Assembly (NCBI GenBank): GCA_003331985.1 | Contig: QOQK01000002.1 | Location: 27,986-91,985, forward strand | Direction: 5' to 3' | Length of the DNA: 64,000 nt | Origin: PS1 clade bacterium | Lineage (GTDB): Bacteria; Pseudomonadota; Alphaproteobacteria; RS24 | Shown here: positions 1-7,584 of the stretch, in pieces | Position numbering within the stretch: the first letter of the stretch is position 1 | How the letters are laid out: each line of letters opens with the position of its first letter | Program-made: the position numbers and the translations under genes | Notes under the pieces: model-generated | What the model was told of the DNA's origin: nothing | The model's database searches: none | Seen by the model: only the letters and a program-made list of their open reading frames with translations

Positions 1-13
1 AATCGCCTCTAGT

Positions 14-28
14 TTATAATAATTATAA
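14..28. promoter_or_regulatory. AT-rich perfect palindrome upstream of irr
   Basis: TTATAAT-A-ATTATAA is a perfect inverted repeat with 7-base arms, ending 24 bp before the first possible irr start. It could be an operator for irr or part of its promoter. AT-rich sequence makes palindromes easily by chance, so this is only a candidate. Confidence 0.25.
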
Positions 29-52
29 GTTTCAGATTTTTTTACAAAGATT

Positions 53-502
53 ATGGTTACGATGGAAAACGTTAACACCCATACGAATCAAAACGAAAGT
101 CACCAAACGCTTACTGATAAATTGCGTGGGGTGGGATTGCGTGCAACCCGTCAAAGACTGGATATTGGGAGCCTTCTTTTCTCAGGAAAATATCGTCATG
201 TGACGGCTGAAAGTTTACATGATGAGGCAATTGCAGCTGGCATGAAGATTTCACTGGCAACAATTTATAACGCCCTGAACCAGTTCACGGATGTCGGACT
301 TCTCCGAGAGGTTCTCGTTGATCCTACGCGCACCTATTTTGATACAAATACATCTTCTCATCACCACTTTTTTAATATTGATAATGGTCATCTGACAGAT
401 ATCCCGCATGATGAAATCAATGTTTCCTGCCTTCCAACCTTACCGGATGGACAGATTATTGACGGTGTGGATGTTTTGATAAGAATTAAGCCTGTAGCAT
501 AA
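53..502 (+). CDS. irr: Irr, Fur-family iron response regulator
   Basis: Fur-superfamily transcription factor of the Irr branch, which in alphaproteobacteria represses or activates iron, heme and oxidative-stress genes according to heme status. The N-terminal winged helix is visible (LRATRQRLDIGSLLF, then SLATIYNALNQFTDVGLLRE), followed by the Irr-type dimerisation domain with YFDTNTSSHHHFF; the three histidines (about residues 103-105) form the low-affinity heme site of the family. The N-terminal cysteine-proline heme regulatory motif of Bradyrhizobium Irr is absent, as in many other Irr proteins. Length (149 aa) is normal. An alternative ATG lies three codons in. It sits directly upstream of a canonical Irr box and a rubrerythrin operon, which fits a local regulator-target pair. 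Confidence 0.92.
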   Translation: MVTMENVNTHTNQNESHQTLTDKLRGVGLRATRQRLDIGSLLFSGKYRHVTAESLHDEAIAAGMKISLATIYNALNQFTDVGLLREVLVDPTRTYFDTNTSSHHHFFNIDNGHLTDIPHDEINVSCLPTLPDGQIIDGVDVLIRIKPVA

Positions 503-508
503 TTTTTA

Positions 509-525
509 TTTAGAATTATTCTAAA
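509..525. promoter_or_regulatory. Irr box (ICE motif) before rubrerythrin operon
   Basis: TTTAGAATTATTCTAAA is a perfect inverted repeat with 7-base arms around TTA. It matches exactly the known alphaproteobacterial iron control element TTTAGAA-N3-TTCTAAA bound by Irr. It lies 4 bp upstream of a consensus -35 hexamer, a position suited to repression of the downstream operon. The irr gene ends 7 bp before it. Confidence 0.85.
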
Positions 526-528
526 CTA

Positions 529-558
529 TTGACATCTCTTCTCTAAGACATATATAGT
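529..558 (+). promoter_or_regulatory. Sigma-70-type promoter of the rubrerythrin operon
   Basis: TTGACA (529-534) is a consensus -35 box. TATAGT (553-558, spacer 18) or the overlapping TATATA (551-556, spacer 16) can serve as -10. It directly follows the Irr box, giving an mRNA leader of about 80 nt before the rubrerythrin start. Confidence 0.7.
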
Positions 559-642
559 CTACATAAGAGTTAGGGAAAGCCCTTTTCTCTTTATTACTGG
601 CTTTTCGGATTGGCCGAAAAGCATGCTTGGAGGAAGATGATA

Positions 643-1059
643 ATGTCACTCGCAGACTCAAAAACTCTGGAAAACCTGAAGGACGCATTTGCCGGTGAAA
701 GCCAGGCAAACCGTCGCTACCTTTACTTCGCGCAAAAAGCCGATGTAGAGGGATATAACGATGTTGCTACTGTATTTCGCTCGACTGCTGAAGGCGAAAC
801 AGGACACGCACATGGTCACCTCGAATTTCTTGAAGAAGTTGGGGATCCTGCAACTGGTGAGCCAATCGGTTCAACAGCTGCAAACCTGAAAGCTTCAATT
901 GCCGGTGAAACACATGAATACACAGACATGTATCCCGGTATGGCACGTACTGCACGTGAAGAAGGCTTCGATGAAATTGCTGACTGGTTTGAAACACTCG
1001 CCAAAGCGGAGAAATCCCACGCTGGCCGTTTCCAGAAAGCACTGGACTCAATGGATTAA
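643..1059 (+). CDS. Rubrerythrin-type diiron protein without rubredoxin domain
   Basis: A 138-residue four-helix-bundle protein of the rubrerythrin family, expected to reduce peroxide or protect iron-sulfur proteins in the cytoplasm. The diiron ligands are visible: GES (E19), EGETGH (E52 and H55), GETHEY (E89, E92) and KAEKSH (E123, H126). The C-terminal rubredoxin domain with CxxC pairs is absent, so another electron donor is needed; the Fe-S protein next door is a candidate. The ORF track starts at TTG 610, but ATG 643 is preceded by GGAGGA at good spacing and matches family N-termini. First gene of an operon under an Irr box and followed by a strong hairpin. Confidence 0.9.
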
Positions 1060-1097
1060 TTTCCACTCTGTGTCTCTTTGAGACATATGAGACTCTT

Positions 1098-1140
1098 GGA
1101 GACTATGGCGGCTATCGCCATAGTCTCTGTGGTCTCTTTT
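1098..1140 (+). terminator. 12-bp perfect hairpin with T-rich tail (attenuator or processing site)
   Basis: GAGACTATGGCG (1099-1110) and CGCCATAGTCTC (1116-1127) form a perfect 12-bp stem with a 5-nt loop, followed by a pyrimidine-rich run ending in TCTCTTTTCTT. It lies between the rubrerythrin and Fe-S genes, so it could be a partial terminator or an mRNA-stabilising element giving more rubrerythrin than the downstream products. Further GTCTC/GAGAC repeats lie just upstream. Confidence 0.65.
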
Positions 1141-1159: not shown

Positions 1160-2512
1160 ATGAAAGAGGGCAGCACCGAAGCGCCAATTCGTTACCCCTT
1201 GGATTGGCATAGCGAAGAATTTTATGACCGCGCAGCACTTGACGAAGAAGCGCGCCGTCAGTTTGATGTTTGTCACGGTTGCAGACGCTGCTTTAACCTC
1301 TGTGATAGTTTCCCGCGCCTATTTGACCTCATTGATGAGTCCGAATCCGGCGAGCTTGATACTGTCGCTAGTGGTGATTTCGGCCCTATTATTGATGGCT
1401 GTACCATGTGCGACATGTGCTTCATGACAAAATGCCCATATGTGCCGCCGCATGAATTTAACTTAGATTTCCCTCATCTTATGCTTCGCTATCGCGCTGT
1501 GGAATTGAAAGAAAAAGGCAAAGCGCCTTTTACTCAAAACCAGCTTGCTCAGATGGACAGAAATGGCTCGCTTGCTGAAAAAGTATCCGGTCTTGCGAAT
1601 TGGGGTTCCTCTAAAGGGAATGCGCTTACTCGCCCTGTCATGTCAGCGACTTTGGGCATTGATAAAAATGTTGAATTACCAAAATTTACCGGTGAAACAT
1701 TTATGAAGCGTGCAGAAAAATCTGCAAAGAACGGTGAGTTAGAGCCCAATAAAGAGGGTACTGCTCAAGACAGGAAAGCGCTTATCTACGCTACATGTTC
1801 AGTTAATTATAACAATCCCGGTGTAGGTGAAGCCGCACTCAAAGTGCTGACACATCTTGGAGTTTCCGTGAAAACAGATTATCCGGGCTGTTGCGGCATG
1901 CCTTATTTGGAGCAGGGCAATCTTGAGAAAGTGGCTCAAAATGCTGCGAGTGTCTCGGCTGCGCTGCGCCCTTACATTGACGAGGGGTATGATATTCTGA
2001 CCCTGACGGCCAGTTGTGGATTGATGTTCAAATTTGAGTGGCCCTTAATCGTGCCAGATAATGAGGATGTGAAAGCCCTCAGCGCTGCGACGCGAGATAT
2101 TAGCGAATATATTGTTCAAATCGCTGATAAAAACGGCCTTCCCGATGGCCTTCAAACAATAGAAGGCGGGGTGCAGGTGCATCTGGCCTGTCATGCTCGC
2201 GCCCAAAATATGGGGCCAAAATCAGCAGACCTATTGCGTCTCATTCCTGATGCCGACATTGGGGTCATTGAGCGTTGTTCCGGTCATGGTGGTACTTTCG
2301 GTGTTATGAAAGACACCCATGATCTTGCTGTAAAAGTCGGCAAACCAGTCGCACGTAATGTGGCTAAATCTGAAGCCAAGATTATTGTTTCAGATTGTCC
2401 ACTCGCGGCAAAACATATTGTTCAAGGAGTCGAATATCTAGACTCATCTGCAAAACTGCCGGAGGCCGCGCACCCTGTAGAGGTATTCGCGCGCGCTTAT
2501 GGTCTAATATAA
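1160..2512 (+). CDS. Heterodisulfide-reductase-related Fe-S protein (CCG domains)
   Basis: A 450-aa soluble protein with two N-terminal [4Fe-4S] motifs: CHGCRRCFNLC (C38, C41, C44, C48) and CTMCDMCFMTKCP (C81, C84, C87, C92). Two CCG/HdrB-like domains follow. The first has a full CCG motif (PGCCGMPYLEQGN, about residue 245), whereas the second reads CSGHGG, so one canonical cysteine is replaced. The protein resembles GlpC and HdrD-type electron-transfer subunits, but no dehydrogenase partner is adjacent. A start with upstream AAAAGGAA fits. Its place between rubrerythrin and DUF3501 is a recurrent arrangement in alphaproteobacteria and suggests an electron donor or repair role in iron/peroxide stress; that role is inference. 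Confidence 0.85.
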   Translation: MKEGSTEAPIRYPLDWHSEEFYDRAALDEEARRQFDVCHGCRRCFNLCDSFPRLFDLIDESESGELDTVASGDFGPIIDGCTMCDMCFMTKCPYVPPHEFNLDFPHLMLRYRAVELKEKGKAPFTQNQLAQMDRNGSLAEKVSGLANWGSSKGNALTRPVMSATLGIDKNVELPKFTGETFMKRAEKSAKNGELEPNKEGTAQDRKALIYATCSVNYNNPGVGEAALKVLTHLGVSVKTDYPGCCGMPYLEQGNLEKVAQNAASVSAALRPYIDEGYDILTLTASCGLMFKFEWPLIVPDNEDVKALSAATRDISEYIVQIADKNGLPDGLQTIEGGVQVHLACHARAQNMGPKSADLLRLIPDADIGVIERCSGHGGTFGVMKDTHDLAVKVGKPVARNVAKSEAKIIVSDCPLAAKHIVQGVEYLDSSAKLPEAAHPVEVFARAYGLI

Positions 2513-2524
2513 ATGGAGAGTTTT

Positions 2525-3118
2525 ATGTCTGAAGCTAACAGAGCAATTACCCCTGAAGATATTGTGCCTATGACTACTTATGTCGCCGAACGTAAGGAAA
2601 GACGTCAGGCCGTTCTTGCACTCAAAAAACCACGTCGGATTGAGATTGGGCCGGTCGCAACATTTTATTTTGAGAATTACGAGACCATGCTGGCTCAAAT
2701 TCAAGAGATGCTTTACATCGAAAAAGGTGGTGATGAACAGCTTGAGGATGAGCTGACTGCCTATAATCCGATGATACCGGATGGCTGTGAACTGACTGCA
2801 ACTTTGATGTTTGAAATAGATGATCCGCAGCGTCGCGGTTCCATTTTACGCCGTCTGACGGATGTTGAAATGACAGCTTACATTGAGGTGGCTGGTGAGA
2901 AGGTCTTCGCAGTTCCAGAACAGGAAGTCGAACGAACAGCCTCCGACGGCAAGACATCCTCTGTTCATTTTTTACACTTCCCGTTTACGGCAGAGCAAAT
3001 TGCGGCTTTCAAAGATACCAATAATCAAGCCATTCTAGGCATTGGTCATGAGAATTATGCACATATGACGATTTTGTCAGAAGAATCGCGTACCTCGCTG
3101 GCTGGAGATTTTGATTAA
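2525..3118 (+). CDS. DUF3501 family protein
   Basis: A 197-aa protein recognisable as DUF3501 by its setting and sequence (ITPEDIVPMTTYVAERKERR near the N-terminus, YFENYETMLAQIQEML in the middle, HFPFTAEQIAAFK near the end). Function is unknown. No signal peptide, membrane segment or metal motif is evident. The track start at ATG 2513 abuts the preceding stop, but GGAGAG sits between it and ATG 2525, so 2525 is the likelier start. It is translationally linked to the CCG Fe-S gene, and its stop ends 1 bp before the convergent SH3 gene's stop. Confidence 0.85.
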   Translation: MSEANRAITPEDIVPMTTYVAERKERRQAVLALKKPRRIEIGPVATFYFENYETMLAQIQEMLYIEKGGDEQLEDELTAYNPMIPDGCELTATLMFEIDDPQRRGSILRRLTDVEMTAYIEVAGEKVFAVPEQEVERTASDGKTSSVHFLHFPFTAEQIAAFKDTNNQAILGIGHENYAHMTILSEESRTSLAGDFD

Positions 3119-6646: not shown

Positions 6647-7102
6647 TTAAATGTTGAAATCTACTGATGTTTCAGAACTTAAGCTGTTTTTATTTTGATG
6701 GCTCTGACAAATATCGTCAATGCTTACGCTGTCGAGATGTTTTAGAAATTCACCTTCAAGTTCAGTGCATTTCTCAAAAGTCATACCAGCCCCGAGCTGA
6801 CTGTCTTTAGATTTCTGGGCTGCTTCGTTTTCAACGCGTTCAATTTCAGCGATAACGCGTACTACCTCACCGGCAAAAATCTTACGCCTTTCGCGGGCTA
6901 GTCTGTATCCCCCTTTGGGTCCGCGTACGCCGCGAAGAATATCGGCTTTCACGAGGGTTTGCATAATCTGTTCAAGATATCGCTGGGGAACCTTTTGACG
7001 ACTAGTGATGTCTTTCGCTTGCACCGGGTCGGGTCGGGAATGCAGGGCAACATCCACAACTGTCTCTAATGCTAAAACTGTTTTCCGGCTTAAAAACAGC
7101 AT
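6647..7102 (-). CDS. Rrf2-family transcriptional regulator (CymR-like context)
   Basis: A 151-aa winged-helix regulator of the Rrf2 family: [15 protein letters not shown], then [31 protein letters not shown]. The C-terminal part has cysteines only in FEKCTEL and DDICQS, not the three-cysteine array that binds the cluster in IscR, so it is probably not a canonical Fe-S sensor. Position directly before cysK points to regulation of sulfur assimilation. The ORF track uses a TTG at 7108 inside the dut stop; ATG 7102 with AAAGG six bases upstream is preferred. Confidence 0.82.
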
Positions 7103-7104
7103 CT

Positions 7105-7584
7105 TCAACCTTTCGAGTGATTAGAAGTGCCACCCGTGGAGCCAAACCCGCCTTCGCCCCTCTCGGTATCAGGAAGTTCTTCTGTTTCTTGAAGAATGCC
7201 TTGTGTCACCGGTGCAATAACCATCTGGGCAATCCGATCGCCACGATTTATTACAAAAGCTTCTGGCCCGTGATTAATAAGAATAACTTTCACCTCACCC
7301 CGGTAATCACTATCAACAGTGCCGGGGCTATTGAGTACGGTAACACCAAATTTGGCTGCCAAACCTGAGCGCGGGCGAACTTGAGCTTCAAAACCTTGGG
7401 GTAATGCCATTGCCAGACCCGTCGGCACCATTGCGGTTTTGCCGGGAGCTAGGGTCACTGGATTGTCTTCGGGCAATGCTGCTCTTAAATCCATGCCTGC
7501 GGCTTGGTCCGTTTCATAAGATGGCAGGGGCAAGCCCTCGCTATGTGGCAGGCGTTTAATCTCAATGCTGACATTGTGGGCCAT
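7105..7584 (-). CDS. dut: Deoxyuridine 5'-triphosphate nucleotidohydrolase
   Basis: Trimeric dUTPase that hydrolyses dUTP to dUMP, keeping uracil out of DNA and feeding dTMP synthesis. All family motifs appear: AAGMDLRA (1), [10 protein letters not shown] (2), [16 protein letters not shown] (3), [12 protein letters not shown] (4) and the C-terminal [10 protein letters not shown] arm (5). The 159-aa length is normal. The coaBC stop and dut start share bases (TAATG), as in the common coaBC-dut pair of proteobacteria. Confidence 0.95.

Follow-up and report, generated by a model that had tools for sequence, protein, structure and literature searches.

Predicted regulation at a palindrome between irr and a rubrerythrin operon

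The 64,000-nucleotide stretch of PS1 clade bacterial DNA analysed here (hereafter the window) carries a palindrome between irr, which encodes an iron/heme response regulator of the Fur superfamily, and the genes for a rubrerythrin (rbr), an Fe-S protein (RFO) and a DUF3501 protein. This arrangement raises the question of whether the product of irr controls the neighbouring genes through the palindrome and, if so, in which direction and in response to which signal. An earlier sequence-only reading had proposed an exact Irr operator of the ICE type abutting a consensus promoter, with release of repression when iron or heme is ample and peroxide defence would be needed. Our comparisons of related loci give good support to the prediction that the palindrome is the operator by which the adjoining irr gene product controls the rbr operon, whereas the direction and the signal call for a more graded answer.

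An exact ICE beside a near-consensus promoter

The palindrome conforms to the pattern TTTAGAA-N3-TTCTAAA at 14 of 14 positions and lies near the promoter of its presumed target (Table 1). We take it to be equal to the ICE consensus published in 2006 by Rudolph and by Rodionov. A consensus computed from 59 related loci bears out the claim of an exact operator, since the most frequent base agrees with the window 17-mer at each of the 17 positions. The site is beyond chance: at three or fewer mismatches, chance alone would give 0.27 matches in the window, and this one is exact. Nowhere else does the 1.32 Mb assembly (78% complete) from which the window derives match TTTAGAANNNTTCTAAA at 14/14. 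Four relatives of the same genus, whose genomes are 90-99% complete, each have a single genome-wide match at one or fewer mismatches, and these sites precede rbr in their loci (L017-L020). The idea of a self-contained switch therefore essentially holds in the window's genus.

Searches of the same assembly at two mismatches yielded eight further places, none of them before an evident iron gene and most within coding sequence, and no wider Irr regulon was found. At three mismatches a reversed-pattern control produced more matches than the ICE (211 versus 113), and thus weak sites carry no information.

Table 1. Features of the irr-rbr region and one further regulator in the window. Positions are those of the window.
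Feature	Position	Strand	Description
Weak ICE-like inverted repeat, candidate autoregulatory site	13-29		TTTATAATAATTATAAG; 11/14 match; immediately before irr
irr, Fur-superfamily iron/heme response regulator	53-502	+	149 aa; PF01475; NF045678
ICE, candidate Irr operator	509-525		TTTAGAATTATTCTAAA; perfect 7-3-7 inverted repeat (TTTAGAA, TTA, TTCTAAA), 14/14
-35 hexamer	529-534	+	TTGACA; 3 bp after ICE
-10 hexamer	553-558	+	TATAGT; 18-bp spacer; identical in all five genus loci
Hairpin in rbr 5' leader	600-622	+	GCTTTTCGG-ATTGG-CCGAAAAGC; genus-level only
rbr, short 'aerobic-type' rubrerythrin without rubredoxin domain	643-1059	+	138 aa; PF02915, 109 bits
Terminator-like hairpin, probable attenuator	1097-1129	+	15-bp stem with a T-rich stretch behind it; in the rbr-RFO gap
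RFO, CCG-domain Fe-S protein	1160-2512	+	PF02754; under NCBIfam GlpC cut-offs
DUF3501 protein	2513-3118	+	PF12007, 201 bits
Rrf2-family regulator	6647-7108	-	beside cysteine synthase-like and ThiF/MoeB-like genes

The promoter beside the palindrome is likewise as had been described, with 11 of 12 hexamer bases in agreement with the consensus. However, the gap between the palindrome and the -35 hexamer had been given as 4 bp and is 3 bp when counted. The promoter start is predicted near 565, and the centre of the ICE lies near -48. Further downstream, the hairpin in the 5' leader of rbr resides just upstream of the ribosome-binding site and shows small changes within the genus. Related loci revealed no class-wide conservation of this hairpin, and no Rfam match reached threshold.

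The candidate operator and the -35 hexamer lie at a nearly constant distance

We scanned the rubrerythrin loci of 90 genomes and scored ICE matches within 250 bp. A match of at least 12/14 was present at 57 of the 65 rbr promoters that have irr directly upstream, compared with 0.5% of shuffled sequences. Only one of 25 rbr loci without a linked irr had such a match; by record title, many of these loci belong to Caulobacterales, Sphingomonadales or Gammaproteobacteria.

A TTGA[CT] sequence starts 3-6 bp after the ICE at 53 of 60 loci (1.3% when shuffled). The distance is exactly 3 bp in 33 cases, and the hexamer is TTGACA in 33 of the 53. This ICE-to-TTGAC distance has a standard deviation of 0.8 bp, versus 35-37 bp for the other distances: the ICE follows the irr stop codon by 0-242 bp, and TTGAC precedes the ATG by 57-214 bp. 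Because the spacing is rigid while its flanks vary, the operator and the -35 box appear to be held together by selection.

Irr and peroxidase genes across Alphaproteobacteria

A class-wide sample of 190 alphaproteobacterial genomes contained 117 with an Irr match, and 110 irr loci were examined. The rbr gene directly follows irr at 73 of these loci, 57 of which carry an ICE of at least 11/14, again with a modal gap of 3 bp. Judged from these sequences, the arrangement recurs in most sampled alphaproteobacteria that carry irr, and is real and old.

When 35 genomes in which irr is not followed by rbr were searched, the aerobic-type rbr was absent from most and was present but unlinked in three. 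The ICE is kept on the rbr promoter in two of them (L326 and L327, both 13/14; in L327, TTGACT begins 3 bp after it), and none was found on the rbr promoter of the third (L330). The retention of the site in two of three such genomes indicates that it belongs to rbr rather than to the 3' end of irr. Other loci carry different peroxidase genes, here named by sequence resemblance. At L317 a katG-like gene with an ICE-TTGACC promoter takes the position after irr that rbr has elsewhere, and at L206 a peroxiredoxin gene is located between irr and rbr. Sister genera have a second ICE with similar TTGA spacing before genes for peroxiredoxin (L114) or before bfr (L119, L174-176). The bfr gene of the window's own genome lacks an ICE (best 10/14), as do the VIT1-domain genes in the class sample, which were uninformative.

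The tree of Irr proteins (146 columns, 63 open forks) has a resolution too poor to place the rbr linkage as ancestral. We can only tentatively suggest a history in which irr, ICE and a peroxidase gene formed the ancestral, local version of Irr, a self-regulated and PerR-like rubrerythrin switch whose operator and promoter stand in rigid geometry. The global regulator of rhizobia would then be a later expansion, and the window's genus would have kept or regained a single target.

The regulator, a candidate site upstream of its gene and its probable signal

The gene directly upstream of the palindrome is irr, as the sequence-only reading had stated. Its product scores 184 bits with the NCBIfam IrrA model NF045678 (cut-off 150) and 168 bits with the Irr model NF045677, narrowly below the cut-off of 170. 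The translation contains HHHFF and hence an HxH heme-binding motif. Motifs of the HHH type occur in the Irr proteins of 101 of 110 relatives and Cys-Pro in 4 of 110. The window protein has no N-terminal Cys-Pro heme regulatory motif like that of Bradyrhizobium-type Irr. Since it has HHH but not Cys-Pro, this Irr is likelier to respond to heme by releasing DNA than by being degraded. Loss of DNA binding on heme is the behaviour of Irr of the Rhizobium leguminosarum type (PMC7762939).

The earlier operator picture was right about the main site, but overlooked a weaker second site at the irr promoter. The same 11/14 repeat is found upstream of irr in all five genus loci, and repeats of at least 11/14 occur there in 20 of 64 relatives compared with 2.3% of shuffled sequences. 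Autoregulation of irr through this site is therefore probable. On this sequence evidence, Irr in the window's genus seems to be a local switch dedicated to rbr, and a second, weaker site lies at its own gene.

The protein might instead act as a PerR-like peroxide sensor that is inactivated by metal- or heme-catalysed oxidation, such that iron status would be secondary. PerR proteins sense peroxide through a bound metal and also possess a structural zinc site. When aligned to solved Fur proteins, the window Irr has His or Asp at the positions that we take to be those of the regulatory metal site, and the irr-adjacent genes that share the same ICE promoter encode peroxidases (rbr, peroxiredoxin and katG). 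In addition, Magnetospirillum irrA transcription changed with oxygen rather than with iron (PMC5459824). However, the lead of Irr models over PerR models exceeds 100 bits (184 versus a best of 61, with PerR cut-offs at 180-250), the single Cys leaves no CxxC structural zinc site, and heme is the signal to which characterised Irr proteins respond (PMC7762939). We thus regard peroxide as an unlikely primary signal.

The rubrerythrin operon and its intergenic hairpin

The three genes predicted downstream of the palindrome are all present. The PF02915 domain spans the rubrerythrin and leaves no room for a rubredoxin domain, and RFO (PF02754) and DUF3501 (PF12007) adjoin it, which makes the cluster one of the aerobic rubrerythrin type. 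Among solved chains, those closest to the window rubrerythrin are rubrerythrins (9onm, 4di0 and 8fuh) and sulerythrin. Of the named relatives found, alpha proteobacterium IMCC14465 is the nearest, with a rubrerythrin that is 97% identical.

A conserved, terminator-like hairpin lies between rbr and RFO and makes it doubtful that the one promoter drives all three genes equally. A stem of at least 11 bp is found in this gap in 32 of 63 relatives, compared with 0.3% of shuffled sequences. The hairpin is a probable attenuator that would set the rbr:RFO ratio and lower RFO and DUF3501 relative to rbr.

The window encodes one further regulator of note, an Rrf2-family protein (Table 1) that scores under the IscR, CymR and RirA cut-offs and is possibly a regulator of cysteine metabolism.

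Repression or activation by Irr

The most likely mechanism is that apo-Irr obstructs the -35 region under iron or heme scarcity. Dimers of apo-Irr would occupy the ICE, whose edge lies 3 bp from the -35 hexamer, and would hinder contact by RNA polymerase so that an iron-containing peroxidase would not be produced. With ample heme, or after oxidative damage to Irr, the protein would release DNA and the strong promoter would fire. The weaker ICE upstream of irr would provide autoregulation, and the hairpin after rbr would keep expression of RFO and DUF3501 below that of rbr. We consider this combined explanation (Irr-ICE repression, irr autoregulation and hairpin attenuation) probable as a whole.

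Four observations favour repression. Near-consensus -35 and -10 hexamers should need no activator. Loci L041 and L055 carry two exact ICEs 32 bp apart upstream of rbr, which flank the -35 box and place the second ICE between -35 and -10, a repressor position. Upstream of irr, the ICE fills the presumed promoter spacer in L066, L068, L076 and L080, likewise a repressor position. Finally, ccpA of R. sphaeroides has similar geometry and is negatively controlled by Irr, such that loss of Irr raises its expression under iron limitation (PMC3413700).

The opposite arrangement, in which Irr bound at a fixed distance upstream of -35 contacts RNA polymerase and raises rbr expression in low iron, would explain the rigid 3-6 bp spacing, whereas simple occlusion needs no strictly fixed distance between ICE and promoter. 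Irr is able to activate some genes, depending on the position of the ICE (PMC7762939), and in several lineages the ICE of irr lies inside the presumed spacer while that of rbr lies upstream of -35. The main datum contrary to repression comes from the SAR11 bacterium Ca. Pelagibacter ubique, in which one microarray study recorded a 1.57-fold rise in rbr mRNA during iron limitation (PMC2864753). This result would bear on the window by way of the Pelagibacteraceae relatives L058 and L075, which have the same ICE-TTGAC layout. On the other side, activator-dependent promoters seldom have a near-consensus -35, the mapped ccpA site of like geometry acts negatively in low iron (PMC3413700), and the additional ICE of L041 and L055 overlies the core promoter. 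Sister genera also share the geometry at bfr and peroxiredoxin genes, and rhizobial bfr is repressed by Irr (PMC7762939). Activation is accordingly a quite improbable reading of this promoter. The proposed de-repression at ample iron or heme is thus plausible and draws support from the near-consensus hexamers, the likeness to ccpA and relatives with operators inside the promoter spacer, but is opposed by the rise of rbr in Ca. Pelagibacter ubique.

It is very hard to credit that the palindrome serves another Fur-family protein, although the genome encodes a second one (C12:6500), or is a by-product of the irr 3' end, because the ICE tracks the presence of irr class-wide, stays with rbr in two of three cases where irr has moved, and falls beyond the irr coding sequence, 0-242 bp away depending on the locus.

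Relation to known systems

To our knowledge, work on Irr has centred almost entirely on rhizobia, Brucella and Rhodobacter. A link between irr and rbr may have been predicted by Rodionov and colleagues in 2006; in the literature searched here, no paper describing control of rbr by Irr was found. Control of iron and peroxide genes by Irr via ICEs is established, as is the three-gene rubrerythrin cluster (PMC5114695). Less expected from our sequence comparisons are the apparent class-wide rigidity of the geometry and the single-target state in the window's genus.

In the class-wide sample, irr has the aerobic-type rubrerythrin operon as its commonest neighbour, including in marine SAR11, SAR116 and the IMCC14465 group. 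Coupling of irr to rbr would link iron or heme status to peroxide defence in bacteria that have few regulators. Moreover, a system of one regulator and one promoter is well suited to asking how position determines repression or activation by Irr.

Several known systems share parts of this design. The PerR protein of Clostridioides difficile likewise belongs to the Fur superfamily and represses oxidative stress genes, rubrerythrin among them (PMC8546684). It differs from the window Irr, which has no structural zinc site. Ferriperoxin (Fpx) of Hydrogenobacter thermophilus is similarly a rubrerythrin-type peroxidase without rubredoxin and is needed for aerobic growth, but it belongs to a different phylum and Irr control is outside that work (PMC3317640). 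The 'aerobic-type' cluster described in 2016 has the same three co-localised genes and no rubredoxin domain; its text mentions Irr zero times, and the window adds a predicted irr-ICE layer of control (PMC5114695). The closest parallels are the Irr/ICE systems of Rhizobiales and Rhodobacter (mbfA/blr7895, bfr and ccpA), which likewise combine Irr, an ICE-type operator and iron-binding or peroxide-related targets, several of them repressed in low iron as we infer here (PMC3413700, PMC7762939). In contrast to those systems, the window has an Irr without the heme regulatory motif, its target is the rbr-RFO-DUF3501 cluster adjoining irr rather than mbfA or bfr, and its genus carries one strong site per genome.
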